NCBI GenBank assembly: GCA_018262395.1
Contig: JAGSYM010000014.1
Location: forward strand, 1-11,734
Length of the DNA: 11,734 nucleotides
Origin: Nitrospirota bacterium
Lineage (GTDB): Bacteria; Nitrospirota; Thermodesulfovibrionia; Thermodesulfovibrionales; SM23-35
Direction of reading: 5' to 3'
Shown here: one piece after another, positions 6,320-11,362 of the stretch
Layout: each line of letters starts with the position of its first letter
Numbering within the stretch: the stretch's first letter is position 1
Notes under the pieces: generated by a model
Database searches by the model: none
Seen by the model: the letters and a program-made list of their open reading frames with translations, nothing else
Told to the model about the DNA's origin: nothing
Translations under genes and position numbers: made by a program

Positions 6320-6335
6320 ATTCGTCAACCCGCGT

Positions 6336-6409
6336 GCCCCCTTAGCTCAGTAGGATAGAGCACAGGTTTCCTAAACCTGGTGTCGCAGGTTCGATTCCTG
6401 CAGGGGGTA
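6336..6409 (+). tRNA. tRNA-Arg (anticodon CCT)
   Basis: All arms fold. The acceptor pairs 6336-6342 with 6402-6408 (first pair G-T). The D stem is GCTC/GAGC (6345-6348 / 6358-6361). The anticodon stem is CAGGT/ACCTG around loop TTCCTAA, with anticodon CCT at 6370-6372. The variable loop has five bases. The T stem is GCAGG/CCTGC with loop TTCGATT. The discriminator is A6409, and no CCA is encoded. The anticodon reads AGG (arginine). The 3' half is the presumed target of the neighbouring integrase, whose stop codon (minus strand, 6371-6373) overlaps the anticodon. Confidence 0.96.
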
Positions 6410-7540
6410 ACAACTTTCTTCCTTTAAATTCAACGAGTTAGGTTTTTGGGAGGTAGGCTTAGTTATGCTCTCTTTTGTGGGATTGTGCCCAAATTGTGCC
6501 CGTTCCAGTTTTCTTGTGTTTTCCTGATGCATATTGTTTACTTTCTCGGAAGCAGTTTTCAAATCGGCTTCATTGACGATATTGTACCTGTCAAAAACTG
6601 AACGAGTCTTATGGCCCGAGATCTTCATGGCAACCCTTTCGGGAATGCCTGCTCTTATCATATTCCTTACCGCAGTTCTTCTGAGATCGTGGAAGTATTT
6701 CTGACCGAGCTTTGCATTCTTGCATGCAGTTAACCATGTTTTTCTGAAACTCTGTATCCTCTGCCCGTCTTTAAAGAAAACATATCCACATTCAGGATAA
6801 TCGCTGTCTTTAAGAGCCTTTAGCTGCAGAACAGTCTGGAACAGTTCTCCAGTAAGGAATACAATTCGTGCTTCTTCATTCTTCGTCGTACCCGCATCAA
6901 GGGTAATCTTTCCCTCGATCATGTTTACCTTATCCCATTTAAGCGAGAGAATTTCCTCTTTCCTCATCCCAGAGTAATATCCCATTGTCAATACGGGTTT
7001 TAGATAATCTGGTAAGGCTTCTTTGAGTTTCAGGTATTCATCGTGTTCAAAGTATCCAGTTCTGATGTTGTTTTCTTTCAGCTTTGGAATATGAGGGATC
7101 AGATTAACCTTTGGTGGAGTCTGTTCAGCTCCAAGAGACAGCATCCGGTGCAGTGCGGAAGTTTCTCTGTTGATAGTTCCATTGCTTGCATTTTCCGATT
7201 GCCTTTTCAATATGTAGCGCTGAATCATATCCGTTGTCATGTTGGAAATTCTGATTCCAGTAAAAGCATCTTTGAGATGGTCGATACAATCTTCTATTCG
7301 CTCCAGAGATTTTCTTCCGTTGATCTTATAATCGTTGATAAGATCCAGCGAAAGTTCGTCGAAGGTTACCTTATCAACCCTGAGCCCTGGAAATTTACCT
7401 TCTGCAATGTGACCTTCTCTGAGCTTTAATAGTCTTTTCGCATGGGATTCTTTTTCAGAATTAGAGCTTTCCCTGTAAGGTTTTCCGTTGCGGTAATACT
7501 TAATCCAGAAGATTCTGCCTCTCTTATAGATTGTACCCAT
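6371..7540 (-). CDS. Tyrosine recombinase (phage/island integrase)
   Basis: A 389-residue tyrosine recombinase that catalyses site-specific integration and excision. It has an N-terminal arm-binding segment ([20 protein letters not shown]), a core-binding SAM-like domain around residues 55-140, and a catalytic domain with R193 (SGMRKEE), K220 (TTKNEE), H284 and R287 (FHDLRR), H310 (SGHKTR) and the nucleophile Y319 (FDRYNIV). All are present, so it should be active. The last twelve residues ([12 protein letters not shown], about 378-389) are encoded by the antisense strand of the tRNA-Arg gene, a common mark of integrases whose att core is the tRNA 3' end. A strong ribosome site, AAAGGAGGTGA, overlaps the stop of the XRE gene just upstream; the genes are 7 bases apart and surely co-transcribed. 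Element type (prophage remnant, integrative element or island) cannot be told from this window. Confidence 0.95.
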
Positions 7541-7547
7541 TTCTTTG

Positions 7548-7763
7548 TCACCTCCTTTCTCTTTTCATTAACTTGCCCTTATCTTTCATTTCACCTCCTT
7601 CATTTTCCAGCCACTTCAGGGCCAAGTGGAGGAACGGCGGGATATGTCTGTATCCCGCTTCCCATCTGTAGACACAGGTTTTTGTAACACCCAATTTTAC
7701 CCCTAATTCTTCCTGAGTTAAAGAGCGGCTGATGCGCCAGGTTTTCAGTTCTTGCTGAGTCAT
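7548..7763 (-). CDS. Small XRE-family helix-turn-helix regulator
   Basis: A 71-residue DNA-binding protein. The single XRE/Cro-type helix-turn-helix covers residues about 3-55: [12 protein letters not shown] is the first part and [11 protein letters not shown] the recognition region. A short basic tail follows ([12 protein letters not shown]). It is probably the regulator of integrase expression: it lies directly upstream of int with 7 bases between the genes, and a perfect operator-like palindrome overlaps its own promoter, which suggests autoregulation. The ATG at 7763 gives the usual family N-terminus ([10 protein letters not shown]). There is no ribosome binding site before it, and the predicted transcript start falls on the ATG itself, so translation may be leaderless. 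A GGAGGTGAA inside the gene precedes an in-frame ATG near its end, but a functional internal start is not supported. Whether it represses or activates is unknown. Confidence 0.88.
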
Positions 7764-8057: not shown

Positions 8058-8279
8058 ATGGCAGAGATAAAAGTTGATTGTACCAATGAAACCTGTCCAG
8101 TTCCCTTAGTGGAAACGAGAAAAGCCCTGCGGAAAGCAAAAGAGGGTGATATAGTGATAGTTACCGGTACTCATCCAGCGTCAAAGAAAGAAATACCGAT
8201 GGCGGTTAAGGCATTAGGCTTGGAATTGCTTGATATCAAAGAAGACGGCAATGTCTGGACAATCAGAATTCGCCGATAG
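8058..8279 (+). CDS. TusA-like sulfur carrier protein
   Basis: A 73-residue TusA/SirA-family protein (two-layer alpha/beta fold), which carries sulfur as a persulfide between enzymes in the cytosol. The family motif CPxP is present as C13-P14-V15-P16, with C13 the expected persulfide site. A second cysteine, C8, lies five residues earlier. The remainder (THPASKKEIPMAVKALG...GNVWTIRIRR) fits the family, and length is typical. The ribosome site AGAGGTG (8044-8050) sits seven bases before the ATG. It is first in a four-gene operon with DsrE-like, IscS-like and IscU-like genes (8 bases to the next). Context suggests it hands sulfur to or from the DsrE-like protein and on to the scaffold. Homologues are split into TusA, YedF and YeeD types, and I cannot say which this is, so no symbol is given. 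Confidence 0.88.
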   Translation: MAEIKVDCTNETCPVPLVETRKALRKAKEGDIVIVTGTHPASKKEIPMAVKALGLELLDIKEDGNVWTIRIRR

Positions 8280-8287
8280 GGGGAGTC

Positions 8288-8707
8288 ATGGCAAATAAAG
8301 CGACCATAATAGCACACAGTGGTGATATGGACAAGATATACAGCGCCTTAATCATTGCCAATGGTGCACTTGCTATGGGAATGGAGGCATCTATCTTTTT
8401 TACGTTTTGGGGGCTCCAGCGGTTAAAAAAGGGTGGCTTGGAAAAAGGCCCCCTCTCAAAAATGAATATGCTTGGTCTGGGTAAGCTGATGGTAAAACTC
8501 AAGATGAAGAAAGTAGGGGTTGCCACTTTGGAGAGGCTCCTGCAAGACTTCAAAGAACTGGGCGGCAAAATACTTGCCTGCGACATGACGATGGAGATCA
8601 TGGGAATCAAGAAAGAAGAACTCAGGGACGATCTCATATCGGATTACTGTGCCGTTGGCACTTATGTGAATGAGGCAAGAGATTCATCGATTACTCTTTT
8701 TATCTGA
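8288..8707 (+). CDS. DsrE/DsrF-like family protein (COG2210 type)
   Basis: A 139-residue DsrE-superfamily protein, probably a thiol-based sulfur carrier. The N-terminal KATIIAHSGDMDKIYSALIIANGALAMGMEASIFFTFWG pattern (split here only by helices) is characteristic of the COG2210/DsrE2 branch. The central Lys- and Gly-rich stretch, and C98 in ILACDMTMEIMGI, the conserved persulfide-type cysteine, fit the same branch; a second cysteine, C121, is in DYCAVGTY. There is no clear membrane segment beyond one moderately hydrophobic helix (residues 20-32). An AGGGGGAG ribosome site bridges the preceding stop and this ATG, and its TGA overlaps the next gene's ATG by one base. Genetic linkage of tusA and dsrE-like genes is common in sulfur oxidisers and reducers (family knowledge), which supports a relay TusA to DsrE or the reverse. 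The exact partner is inferred. Confidence 0.85.
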   Translation: MANKATIIAHSGDMDKIYSALIIANGALAMGMEASIFFTFWGLQRLKKGGLEKGPLSKMNMLGLGKLMVKLKMKKVGVATLERLLQDFKELGGKILACDMTMEIMGIKKEELRDDLISDYCAVGTYVNEARDSSITLFI

Positions 8708-9906
8708 TGAGAGGAGAAGAATTGTTCGCAAATCGCATCTATTTCGACAATTCAGCTGCTACCCGTCTGGATGAGCGTGTGTTAGATGCAATGAAGCCAT
8801 ACTTCTTTGAGAATTATGCAGTTGCAACCTCCGAGTTTGCCTATTCGGAGGGTATCAGTGCAAGAGAGGCTTTGGACGATTTACGAAGTGTTCTTGCTAC
8901 ATCTCTTGGTGCTAATTCAGACGAATTTATATTTACCTCAGGGAACACTGAGTCTTCTAATATCGCTCTTAAAGGTGTAGCTCTTGCACTCGGTAAGAAA
9001 AAAGGTACCCACATTATAACGTCGAAAATTGAAGATTTCCCGGTACTACATAGTGCGCGAGCGTTAGAAAAGCGAGGCTTCCAGGTAACGTATTTAAAAG
9101 TGGACAGCAATGGTTTTGTTGACCTCGATCAACTGAGAGATGCTCTTACCGACAAGACTATCTTGGTCTCCATTCAGCATGCAAACCAGGAAATTGGAAC
9201 CATCCAAGATATTGAAACAATTGCGCATATTTGCAAAGAGAAGGATGTTCTGTATCATACAGATGCCACACATACCTTTACCAGAGTTCCTCTTGATGTA
9301 AGTAACATTCCTGTTGATCTGGTTACCGTATCTGCCCATACGATCCATGGTCCGAAAGGTATTGGGGGTCTTTATATAAGAAAAGGAACATCCGTAACTA
9401 AATGGATGGATGGCGGTTTTCAGGAATTTGATATTCGTCCGGGGTTAGAGAACATACCTGGTGCAGCAGGCTTTGCTAAAGCAGCTGACCTGGTGACTTC
9501 AGAAGAAACACTGAGACTGCAAGCTATGCGGGATAGAATCATTGACCGTGTGCTCACCGAGATACCGAATACTACGCTCAATGGTCATCGCCATAAGCGG
9601 CTTCCACAAAACGCCAATATCACCTTTCACTTTGTCGAAGGAGAATCAATTACCTTACATCTGGATATGCATGGATATGCTGTAAGCACAGGATCAGCAT
9701 GTTTTAGCCGATCCCTTGAAAGTAGCCATGTCATTATGGGTATAGGTGGTGATCACGAAAGAGCGCATGGCTCGATACGGTTTACCTTCGGGCGTTATAA
9801 CACCATCAATGAGGTTGACGATATCGTTGGAACGCTGGGTGAAATCGTTAAGGAGCTCAGAAAGATCAGCCCTCTTGGGAAAGAAAAAATGGAGGAATCA
9901 AAATGA
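8707..9906 (+). CDS. NifS/IscS-like protein lacking the PLP lysine
   Basis: A 399-residue class V aminotransferase-fold protein, clearly homologous to cysteine desulfurase along its full length (YFDNSAATRLD, FTSGNTESSN, VEGESI, STGSACFSRSLESSH, SIRFTFGR). The lysine that forms the PLP aldimine (SAHK in the family) is T212 (SAHT, codon ACG at 9340-9342). Other pocket positions also differ: E. coli IscS His104 aligns with D110, Asn155 with Q161 and Gln183 with H189. The PLP-ring Asp (D186), the sulfur-accepting C332 and the substrate-binding Arg near the C-terminus remain. Normal desulfurase chemistry is thus unlikely; a scaffold or sulfide/persulfide-transfer role with IscU is inferred. ATG at 8707 overlaps the preceding TGA, but AGAGGAG at 8710-8716 favours an in-frame TTG at 8722, giving a protein five residues shorter. 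It overlaps the iscU-like gene by four bases. An IscS without this lysine is known in Archaeoglobus fulgidus (Asp there). Confidence 0.92.
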   Translation: MRGEELFANRIYFDNSAATRLDERVLDAMKPYFFENYAVATSEFAYSEGISAREALDDLRSVLATSLGANSDEFIFTSGNTESSNIALKGVALALGKKKGTHIITSKIEDFPVLHSARALEKRGFQVTYLKVDSNGFVDLDQLRDALTDKTILVSIQHANQEIGTIQDIETIAHICKEKDVLYHTDATHTFTRVPLDVSNIPVDLVTVSAHTIHGPKGIGGLYIRKGTSVTKWMDGGFQEFDIRPGLENIPGAAGFAKAADLVTSEETLRLQAMRDRIIDRVLTEIPNTTLNGHRHKRLPQNANITFHFVEGESITLHLDMHGYAVSTGSACFSRSLESSHVIMGIGGDHERAHGSIRFTFGRYNTINEVDDIVGTLGEIVKELRKISPLGKEKMEESK

Positions 9907-10538
9907 AATTTCCATATAGTGACATAGTGTTAGAACACTTCCGCCACCCGAGAAATGTGGGGCAAATTGAAGACGCGGATGGGAAGGCAACAGAAGGAAG
10001 TCCTTCTTGTGGAGATATGGTTTCCGTATATATAAAAGTTGATCCGGACAAAAAAACGATCAGCGATATCAAATTTGAATCATACGGTTGTGCTTCCAAC
10101 ATTGCGACGGGTTCTATCATTACTGAACTTGCAAAGGGCAAGACGCTTGATGAGGCCAAGAAAATCAACTGGAAAACAGCTTCGGACGCGCTTGGAGGTC
10201 TGCCTAAAATAAAAGCTCACTGCTCTGTTTTAGCGGTAGAAGGTCTGCGATCAGCCATACAGAATTACGAGGAGCGCCATGGATTGGTCAGAGAGAAAAA
10301 ACCCACAACCGAAGAGGAGATACATAAGCGACTCAGGAAAGTTATGAATCCATTGTCAGGCTTGGATATAGAGCGAACCAACTTAGTGAAAGTTGTGCAA
10401 TTAAAAGATGGCACTGCGCATGTTATGATAGACCTGCCTCCCGACCATCAGTTTTCCAATTCTATAAAGGAGGAAATAAAAGAAAAGATTGAGCCACTTT
10501 GGGATATTAAGGAAGTCATTGTGGAATTCATAACATGA
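9903..10538 (+). CDS. IscU-like Fe-S scaffold fused to a DUF59/MIP18 domain
   Basis: A 211-residue two-domain protein. Residues 1-122 are an IscU/NifU-N scaffold on which Fe-S clusters are built. The three ligand cysteines are C36 (SPSCGD), C63 (SYGCAS) and C107 (KAHCSV), and the assembly-linked Asp38 is present. LPKIK at about 100-104 replaces the LPPVK chaperone motif. After a charged linker, residues about 137-211 resemble DUF59/MIP18 (PaaD, SufT, MIP18), with the typical start EEEIHKRLRKVMNPLSGLDI and the end IKEVIVEF. The cysteine that many DUF59 proteins carry in a TxxGCP-like loop is absent; the loop reads LPPDHQFSNS. The ribosome site GGAGG (9891-9895) is seven bases before the ATG, and the gene overlaps the IscS-like gene by four bases, so the two products are probably made together. 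It is last in the operon; no terminator is evident. The fusion implies cluster assembly and delivery in one polypeptide (inference). Confidence 0.88.
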   Translation: MKFPYSDIVLEHFRHPRNVGQIEDADGKATEGSPSCGDMVSVYIKVDPDKKTISDIKFESYGCASNIATGSIITELAKGKTLDEAKKINWKTASDALGGLPKIKAHCSVLAVEGLRSAIQNYEERHGLVREKKPTTEEEIHKRLRKVMNPLSGLDIERTNLVKVVQLKDGTAHVMIDLPPDHQFSNSIKEEIKEKIEPLWDIKEVIVEFIT

Positions 10539-10926: not shown

Positions 10927-10948
10927 GCACAGCTCAGAAGAGCTGTGC
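10927..10948 (-). other. Stem-loop over the tnpA stop codon
   Basis: GCACAGCTC (10927-10935) and GAGCTGTGC (10940-10948) form a perfect 9-bp stem with a four-base loop. The stem covers the last codons and stop of tnpA. There is no T run after it, so it may protect the mRNA end or act with the adjoining terminal hairpin rather than terminate on its own. Confidence 0.6.
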
Positions 10949-11362
10949 AGGCCCTTGCTCTATATCTCTATGATGCTTGATATACTTATCAATGATCTGG
11001 CGAGTCAGACGGTCTCCGACCCTCCTGACAAAATACCCATCTTCCCAAAGTTCTCCAGACCACAACCTCTTCTTCAATCGCGGAAACACGCGGAACAATT
11101 CTCTTGCACTTATGCTCTTTATTGTTCTGACCACCTCACCTATCGAATGCTTTGGCGGAAACGATATCAATATATGTACATGATCCTCTGCTACTTCCAT
11201 CTCATCTATCTCAAATCCATAATCTTCACATATCTCCCGTATCAATTGTTCCGCACGTTCCCTTACCTCTTCACCAACAAATATCTTTTTCCGATATTTC
11301 GGGCACCATACCAAATGGTATGCTGTGTCATATACCGCATGACTCGCCCTCTTCAATCCCAT
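10934..11362 (-). CDS. tnpA: IS200/IS605-family Y1 transposase TnpA
   Basis: A 142-residue HUH endonuclease (REP/Y1 transposase family) that cuts and rejoins single-stranded DNA at the element ends, acting as a dimer. The metal-binding HUH motif is H61-V-H63 in EDHVHILISF. The nucleophile is Y127 in RQIIDKYIKHH, the same number as in the well-studied IS608 enzyme. The start SHAVYDTAYHLVWCPKYRKKIF is the classic family N-terminus. Length is normal and the frame is intact, so it is probably active. The residue four after the Tyr, often Gln in relatives, is His131. ATG at 11362 gives the family start. The ribosome site is poor, and an upstream ATG seven bases away in another frame could interfere; low translation is usual for IS200. 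It runs opposite to the sulfur operon. Confidence 0.93.
   Translation of the reverse strand: MGLKRASHAVYDTAYHLVWCPKYRKKIFVGEEVRERAEQLIREICEDYGFEIDEMEVAEDHVHILISFPPKHSIGEVVRTIKSISARELFRVFPRLKKRLWSGELWEDGYFVRRVGDRLTRQIIDKYIKHHRDIEQGPAQLF

Follow-up and report, generated by a model that had tools for sequence, protein, structure and literature searches.

A widespread class of lysine-less IscS homologues encoded with TusA, DsrE2 and an IscU-DUF59 fusion protein

An IscS homologue need not be a working cysteine desulfurase. That of Archaeoglobus fulgidus (PDB 4eb5, 4eb7, 4hvk), which has Asp199 in place of the lysine that holds pyridoxal phosphate (PLP), has no desulfurase activity and supplies a cysteine ligand to the cluster on IscU, according to PMC7585200. 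That paper also deals with IscS1 and IscU1 of Methanosarcina acetivorans (MA0808/MA0807): IscS1 lacks the catalytic lysine and other PLP-binding residues, carries the motif STGSACFS and, it is suggested, may act like A. fulgidus IscS; IscU1 is a protein of 24.2 kDa; four genes that cluster with the pair are of unknown function; recombinant IscS1 gave inclusion bodies; and only IscS2 and IscU2 were consistently found in the M. acetivorans proteome, with IscS1 marked as detected in the paper's table. The subject here is another lysine-less homologue, the product of a gene designated iscS*, which lies in an 11,734-nucleotide stretch of DNA ("the window") from a Nitrospirota bacterium (assembly GCA_018262395.1, contig JAGSYM010000014.1), together with the set of genes--tusA, dsrE2, iscS*, iscU-DUF59--of which it is part. 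A preliminary description of the window, made from its letters, had offered A. fulgidus IscS as the only precedent; M. acetivorans IscS1, reported as lysine-less in 2020 (PMC7585200), deprives it of that distinction. Lysine-less IscS is already known; what is not found in the literature searched is the breadth of its occurrence and its coupling to TusA. Neither the TusA-DsrE2-IscS*-IscU-DUF59 set nor a rule linking the missing lysine to TusA was found in searches of the open-licence PMC literature, covered at the level of titles and abstract openings.

The iscS* gene (8707..9906, +) is an intact open reading frame (ORF) for 399 amino acids, and its product matches PF00266 (Aminotran_5) with an E value of 4.5e-66. 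The motif that reads SAHK in the family reads SAHT here: codon ACG at 9340..9342 (+) places Thr212 where IscS proteins of the ordinary, "Lys-type" kind have the PLP lysine. Three further plus-strand codons depart from the Lys-type: GAT at 9034..9036 (Asp110 for His), CAG at 9187..9189 (Gln161 for Asn) and CAT at 9271..9273 (His189 for Gln). Asp186 is retained, and so are the mobile-loop cysteine, Cys332 (TGT, 9700..9702, +), and Arg358 (CGG, 9778..9780, +), which we take to be the substrate-carboxylate arginine of desulfurases. Codons and alignments thus agree with what the preliminary description had said of these residues, the conserved C-terminal arginine included. The protein has the aminotransferase class V fold, judging by the PF00266 match and by the structural matches of an AlphaFold2 model (50 sequences; pLDDT 88, pTM 0.88), which keeps the IscS/Nfs1 fold; the low-confidence parts of the model are residues 39-41, 241-246 and, in the Cys loop, 332-335. 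Human Nfs1, E. coli IscS and A. fulgidus IscS are its top structural matches, and every one of ranks 1-24 (TMq 0.85-0.90) is an IscS or an Nfs1. The scores of the protein lie under the NCBIfam equivalog cut-offs, for NifS (439.6 vs 530.75) as well as for IscS (365 vs 643.2).

Is this a lone oddity? It is not: iscS* belongs to a widespread lysine-less class. Two samples, both leaning to close relatives, bear on this point: the closest protein homologues (the best 120 of 7966 matches, 79-100% identical) and the genome loci (the best 80 of 164 confirmed relatives in GTDB species genomes, 66-86% identical to iscS*). When the window is aligned with the 120 homologues, column 212 holds Thr in 116 and Ala in 5 (n=121), and Lys in none; Asp110 and Cys332 are present in 121/121, Gln161 and His189 each in 120/121. 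In 97 rows made up of the window, the 80 genome loci and 16 archaeal loci, Asp110, Gln161, Asp186 and His189 stand throughout, with Thr (89), Leu (7) or Ser (1) at column 212; 36 Lys-type IscS proteins set beside them have His, Asn, Asp, Gln and Lys at these columns in all. The count over unique sequences comes to 99 class members (window excluded), all with Asp, Gln, Asp and His at 110, 161, 186 and 189, and with Thr (91), Leu (7) or Ser (1) at 212; Cys332 and Arg358 are each found in 98 of the 98 rows with a letter at the position. The corresponding 40 Lys-type proteins, defined by Lys at column 212, have His, Asn, Asp and Gln without exception. Close homologues were checked for a lysine or an ordinary pocket at these columns, and none was found among those compared.

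The hosts of the best 80 loci are Chloroflexota, Thermodesulfobacteriota, Myxococcota, Nitrospirota, Bacillota, Atribacterota, Actinomycetota and several archaeal groups. The class is sharply bounded: in the searched genomes, identity to iscS* is at least 63.8% inside it and at most 52% outside it, the exceptions being one partial copy at 62% and short pieces. In plasmid and phage collections only relatives with less than 60% identity to iscS* were found. On a quick tree built without the four diagnostic columns the class forms one clade (41 rows, support 100); on a careful tree from which seven pocket columns were left out, its 18 representatives are again one clade (100/100). Comparison of iscS* with its nearest locus, L001, yields nonsynonymous and synonymous divergences of dN 0.069 and dS 1.38, and a dN/dS of ~0.05 that signifies strong purifying selection. 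One protein in the collections, P0001, is 100% identical to iscS* and represents a cluster of 8 sequences at 90% identity; with 5518 bases, the longest contig of that cluster falls short of the window's length, which means that the protein has been assembled at least one further time, possibly from the same sample. A sequencing error or a recent pseudogene is ruled out by the homologues with the same residues and by the dN/dS. The argument that the active site of a desulfurase had undergone a coordinated, selected change rather than a chance error is accordingly upheld, by the single pocket type across the class and by the purifying selection.

The remodelling of the pocket goes further than had been supposed. 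The "four changes" of the preliminary description all stand, and the number was too low: 21 positions hold one residue in at least 97% of the class and that same residue in less than 30% of Lys-type IscS. They are R20, V39, F44 (which aligns to a gap in Lys-type IscS), K98, D110, F111, Q157, Q161, T188, H189, R193, H214, K232, D235, I250, H318, F333, G348, H350, R352 and I387. Assigning pocket columns to PLP contacts as we take them to be in E. coli IscS and SufS, the cofactor-ring residues His, Asn and Gln are exchanged for Asp, Gln and His in 99/99 class members. The phosphate-contact column 247, Thr in 40/40 Lys-type proteins, is most commonly Leu (54), Val (14), Ile (13) or Met (6) in the class; Gly80, likewise found in 40/40 Lys-type proteins, is mostly Ser, Asp or Glu. 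The residue after the loop cysteine is Phe (F333) in 98/98 class rows and Ser, Thr, Ala or Asn in the 40 Lys-type proteins. Thr81 is retained in 92/99. Of the lysines outside the PLP motif, the class-specific Lys232 (codon 9400..9402, +) occurs in 99/99 and is not among the four commonest Lys-type residues at its column, while Lys217 is not constant (Arg in 39/99, His in 2/99).

In the window, iscS* is the third of four consecutive genes. The tusA-like gene (8058..8279, +; 73 amino acids; PF01206, E 9e-22) encodes a sulfur carrier with a CPxP cysteine, Cys13; the dsrE2-like gene (8288..8707, +; 139 amino acids; PF13686, E 2e-36) encodes a putative sulfur carrier with Cys98, which scores 75 bits against NCBIfam NF047629 (cut-off 210). 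Behind iscS*, and overlapping it by four bases, comes iscU-DUF59 (9903..10538, +; 211 amino acids), a fusion of NifU_N (PF01592, E 8e-41) with FeS_assembly_P, or DUF59 (PF01883, E 2.5e-10). The preliminary description had pointed to a TusA/DsrE operon with an IscU-like partner encoded right behind, and both features prove to be recurrent: on the same strand and within 5 kb of iscS*, TusA is found in 71 of the 73 loci with more than 900 bases upstream, DsrE2 in 72 of the 76 with more than 500 bases upstream, and IscU and DUF59 in all 78 loci with more than 650 bases downstream. The cysteines are kept along with the genes: TusA Cys13 in 75/75 rows with a letter (window included), DsrE2 Cys98 in 74/75, and the cluster ligands of IscU-DUF59, three cysteines and an aspartate (C36, D38, C63, C107), in 80/80. 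The arrangement is less rigid than the membership. In several Chloroflexota tusA and dsrE2 lie downstream of iscS*, and TusA may be encoded upstream of, between or behind the IscS-IscU pair while the gene set persists. No further near-constant neighbour was found in 81 loci, ten neighbours having been scanned in detail; apart from the four genes and an ORF antisense to tusA/dsrE2, the next most frequent neighbour clusters occur in 9/81 loci. Among the occasional neighbours are a ferritin gene between iscS* and iscU (L010:9221-9706; gene cluster in 3/81 loci) and an FdhD/NarQ gene (L006:9866-10657, -) that has the iscS* operon on one side and a pair of ordinary iscS and iscU genes on the other, the FdhD gene cluster being represented in 4/81 loci, L013 and L016 included. 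A Lys-type iscS lies ~2 kb from iscS* in L006, L012 and L013.

The association with TusA extends beyond the window's class. From 177 IscS matches, 172 unique, adjacency was counted where at least 1490 bases were available on both sides (110 lysine-less, 37 Lys-type). A TusA gene on the same strand within 1.6 kb accompanies 101 of 110 lysine-less IscS genes and 0 of 37 Lys-type genes, counts obtained by tblastn with 77 queries of which 75 came from the window's class and could favour it. By kind the figures are 73/80 for the window's class, 23/25 for an Asp-type, 1/1 for a Gln-type and 4/4 for a Leu-type. IscU, for comparison, lies within 1.6 kb of 109/110 lysine-less and 26/37 Lys-type genes. 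A control with the curated family PF01206 in 15 genomes holding both kinds gives a TusA within ~1.4 kb of the window-class gene in 15/15, and within 5 kb of 0/16 other IscS genes (41-47% identity). In six of those genomes, TusA-family genes do lie within ~2 kb of seven distant class-V aminotransferase matches (28-31% identity), two of them on the opposite strand: G023:C83, G016:C163, G005:C77, G022:C155, G019:C25, G019:C42 and G015:C1; these pairs may be selenium-metabolism cassettes. In these counts the absence of the lysine in IscS is strikingly coupled to a neighbouring TusA.

The three further lysine-less kinds, which came from a search for relatives of A. fulgidus IscS and for archaeal IscS, share the neighbours without sharing the pocket. 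The Asp-type (28 unique sequences, A. fulgidus among them) has Asp at the lysine column and Ala at the Gln column in 28/28, His at 110, Asn, Pro, Gly or Ser at 161, and Leu, Val or Glu in place of Arg358 in 28/28. The Leu-type (4 sequences) has Arg110, Phe161, His at 189 and Glu80, with TusA directly behind and then IscU; its loci, L136, L144, L145 and L146 (genomes G209, G227, G235, G245), belong to the GTDB class that holds Methanofastidiosum (and also, we believe, Thermococcus), in which 4/61 genomes have such an IscS-TusA-IscU set. The single Gln-type gene (L125/L141, genome G054) is followed by an IscU with a C-terminal extension and then by TusA. A. fulgidus itself (G141) has a second Asp-type copy, 87% identical to the one whose structure was solved, in a TusA-DsrE-IscS-IscU operon (L176:1193-4362), with a DsrE2-like gene further on and an IscU that has no DUF59 match. 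On the best tree, for which no root was inferred, the lysine column changes twice: one change falls on the branch leading to the Asp-type (100/99), the other on that leading to a group made up of the window's class, the Leu-type and the Gln-type (100/99); the window's class and the Asp-type are separate clades (100/100 and 100/99). A single clade of all lysine-less kinds is not rejected (approximately unbiased test, p 0.43), so two independent losses of the lysine are not claimed. The Gln-type moves about, being basal to the class on the quick tree and grouped with the Leu-type, weakly supported, on the careful one. The earlier suggestion that the Thr version forms a class of its own consequently holds in part: on the best tree it stands apart from A. 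fulgidus IscS, but the TusA/DsrE operon is no distinguishing mark, since the A. fulgidus Asp-type paralogue has one too.

How does iscS* compare with the described systems? Like M. acetivorans IscS1 it lacks the lysine, has STGSACFS and is encoded next to an IscU of the size of IscU-DUF59; the passages of PMC7585200 on IscS1 describe its neighbours as genes of unknown function and do not name TusA or DsrE2. A class-like copy (62-69% identity, some partial) is present in 28 of 30 genomes of the genus Methanosarcina; one of them, G392, has a class-like copy at 67% together with two others at 44-48%. M. acetivorans IscS1, compared through the published description of MA0808, is very probably a member of the same class. 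A. fulgidus IscS shares with iscS* the missing lysine, the IscU partner, the loop cysteine and the fold, and differs in that Asp takes the place of Thr, His110 is retained, residues 189 and 211 are Ala and Asn, and Arg358 is missing. The fold, Cys loop and IscU partner are also those of canonical IscS/NifS and of MIS (MisS-MisU), an IscS/IscU homologue pair in which MisS is a cysteine desulfurase (described along with SMS in PMC12442378); against these, the iscS* module stands out by the lack of the PLP lysine, the altered pocket, the added TusA and DsrE2, and the IscU-DUF59 fusion. The E. coli IscS-TusA relay offers the likeness of an IscS-TusA pair, and its complex, 3lvj, is among the structural matches of the iscS* model. 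In that relay IscS is an active desulfurase and the donor of sulfur to TusA. IscS*, unlike E. coli IscS, could not donate by desulfurating cysteine if the proposal below is right. (TusA and IscS are also the concern of PMC11302665 and PMC11446229, and E. coli TusA serves tRNA and the molybdenum cofactor, or Moco.)

The function proposed, with a probability of about 0.6, is that IscS* provides, within an iron-sulfur (Fe-S) assembly module of four genes, a PLP-independent platform for docking and persulfide relay, loading IscU with sulfur that does not derive from cysteine. IscS* would no longer desulfurate cysteine and PLP would not be used. DsrE2 and TusA would carry sulfane sulfur of other origin (polysulfide, sulfide-derived or thiosulfate sulfur); TusA would transfer it to IscS*, at the loop with Cys332, or else bypass this step; and the loop would hand it to the nascent cluster on IscU-DUF59 or, alternatively, complete the cluster's ligand sphere. 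The direction of sulfur flow would be the reverse of that from E. coli IscS to TusA. The sequences themselves show that the lysine is gone, along with the customary contacts to ring and phosphate; they also show the retention of fold, Cys loop, IscU partner and operon cysteines, the purifying selection, and the coupling of lysine absence to TusA; that PLP is absent, which way the sulfur flows, where it comes from and that an Fe-S cluster is the product, we infer. A non-catalytic role has its precedent in A. fulgidus IscS, described as inactive as a desulfurase and as a ligand donor to the IscU cluster (PMC7585200). Counted in favour of the proposal are the one-pocket clade, the operon, the kept cysteines, the TusA coupling, the ferritin gene of L010 and the genomes in which a class member has no other match of its kind for company. 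Of the readings considered, the best supported is the one already suggested in the preliminary description: a persulfide relay, or a platform for cluster assembly, that draws on a different source of sulfur.

The genomes last mentioned deserve a closer look. Among 24 genomes searched, the class member is the sole IscS/SufS-like match at E 1e-10 in G013, G172, G176 and G183. Seven genomes in the GTDB class of G013 have a full-length class member: G013, G172, G197 and G201 are without another match and three have further matches (in the same GTDB class, G218 contains part of a class copy and G224 a fragment that is class-like). The sole-match genomes include two Methanofastidiosum (L031, L036), one Atribacteria (L037) and one Dehalococcoidia (L038), absence of other desulfurases being judged by a single E-value threshold, in genomes whose completeness is not stated. 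If those assemblies are complete, these organisms have no IscS/SufS cysteine desulfuration and yet keep IscS*-IscU.

A number of points weigh against the platform and relay. At least one further IscS-like match (E 1e-20) is present in 21 of the 24 genomes, so that the module is no plain replacement of a desulfurase; and four of the six sole-match genomes are metagenome assemblies, in which a desulfurase may have been missed. TusA is not always at hand: 7 of 80 window-class loci have none within 1.6 kb, and neither does the solved copy of A. fulgidus (L177, in a genome that matches the solved chain at 100%). The counts that couple the missing lysine to TusA are not phylogenetically independent. 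In M. acetivorans, the consistent detection of IscS2 and IscU2 only, as given in PMC7585200, suggests that IscSU1 is perhaps not the main system there under the conditions used. PMC12442378 proposes another non-cysteine route, by which sulfide is used on SmsBC. Lastly, a near-invariant, class-specific pocket is more than an inert platform needs.

This last point leads to the main rival explanation, that the PLP site has been turned into some other active or ligand site--for a metal or a small molecule, for example, held by D110, Q161, D186, H189, K232, D235 and R358--and that IscS* has a chemistry of its own, such as persulfide reduction or iron delivery. D110, Q161, H189, H214, K232 and D235 are each found in 99/99 class members and in less than 30% of Lys-type IscS, and D186 (99/99) and R358 (98/98) are retained; the class pocket, which the other lysine-less kinds do not share, could accommodate a new ligand or a new chemistry. 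That those other kinds differ at 110, 161 and 189 and still have the same TusA and IscU neighbours speaks against a common new chemistry, and the explanation is judged possible but rather unlikely. Could IscS* instead still be a PLP-dependent desulfurase, in which Lys232 or Lys217 supplies the internal aldimine, or PLP binds without a covalent link? Lys232 is invariant (99/99) and Arg358 (98/98) and Thr81 (92/99) are largely retained; the ring residues His, Asn and Gln and the Thr of column 247 have been replaced, however, Gly80 is mostly Ser, Asp or Glu, and Lys217 is variable. The improbability of this alternative is considerable. Lys217 as a stand-in for the PLP lysine is unlikely in particular, given that it is not conserved (Arg in 39/99, His in 2/99).

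The neighbourhoods allow two more alternatives. IscS* might be a sulfur hub for tRNA, for a molybdenum or tungsten cofactor (by way of FdhD) or for a thio-cofactor, with IscU-DUF59 as an accessory: FdhD lies near the operon in L006, its cluster is represented in L013 and L016, and E. coli TusA is credited with serving tRNA and Moco. Near-constant partnership, however, is confined to TusA, DsrE2 and IscU-DUF59, and the cluster ligands of IscU are kept in 80/80 rows; the hub is judged unlikely. Alternatively, IscS* might be a pseudoenzyme regulator that sequesters IscU or TusA or forms hetero-dimers with a Lys-type IscS. A partner for such dimers would be at hand in the 21 of 24 genomes with a further IscS-like match, and close by in L006, L012 and L013; but some genomes have no other IscS/SufS match, and the Cys loop is invariant, and the regulator is regarded as very improbable.

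By what means anaerobes make Fe-S clusters when they do not draw on the sulfur of cysteine is a standing question, on which the proposed module would bear. M. acetivorans shows no growth phenotype when all SufBC are deleted (the single sufC1B1 deletion was delayed), loss of IscS2U2 leads to a cysteine-specific defect, and, with regard to nitrogenase, the authors raise the question of IscSU or else an unknown Fe-S system (PMC10500019). Thermococcus kodakarensis without cysteine desulfurase grows on elemental sulfur by a mechanism unclear to the authors, whose proposal is the use of sulfide on SmsBC (PMC12442378). The module provides a concrete, deletable candidate for cysteine-independent Fe-S assembly, M. 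acetivorans being a genetically tractable archaeon, and the rule "lysine-less IscS with TusA" predicts a function for many proteins now named cysteine desulfurase. A bolder version of the platform and relay can be formulated: anaerobes would widely possess a cysteine-independent system of Fe-S assembly; in it, sulfur would flow in reverse, by way of TusA, to an IscS whose former PLP pocket now forms a new, strictly conserved ligand or metal site; and this system would be the only IscS/SufS-type machine in some lineages and the missing non-cysteine route in Methanosarcina. It is offered tentatively, the odds being against it.

The remainder of the window holds a few features of separate interest. 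Upstream of the operon, at 6335-7763, a tRNA-Arg(CCT) shares its 3' part with the end of a gene for a tyrosine integrase (6371-7540, -), and a helix-turn-helix (HTH) gene follows, an arrangement that is the mark of an integrated element; no second copy of at least 14 bases of the tRNA-Arg was found in the window. Behind the operon lies an IS200-like Y1 transposase gene (10934-11362, -). Positions 1-2220 resemble what we take to be one Lon-type protease gene, split over three ORFs (1-588, 594-1241 and 1084-2220), two of which share the peptide YVRTCCDDEKLLP; the split may reflect a frameshift, faulty assembly or decay of the gene.

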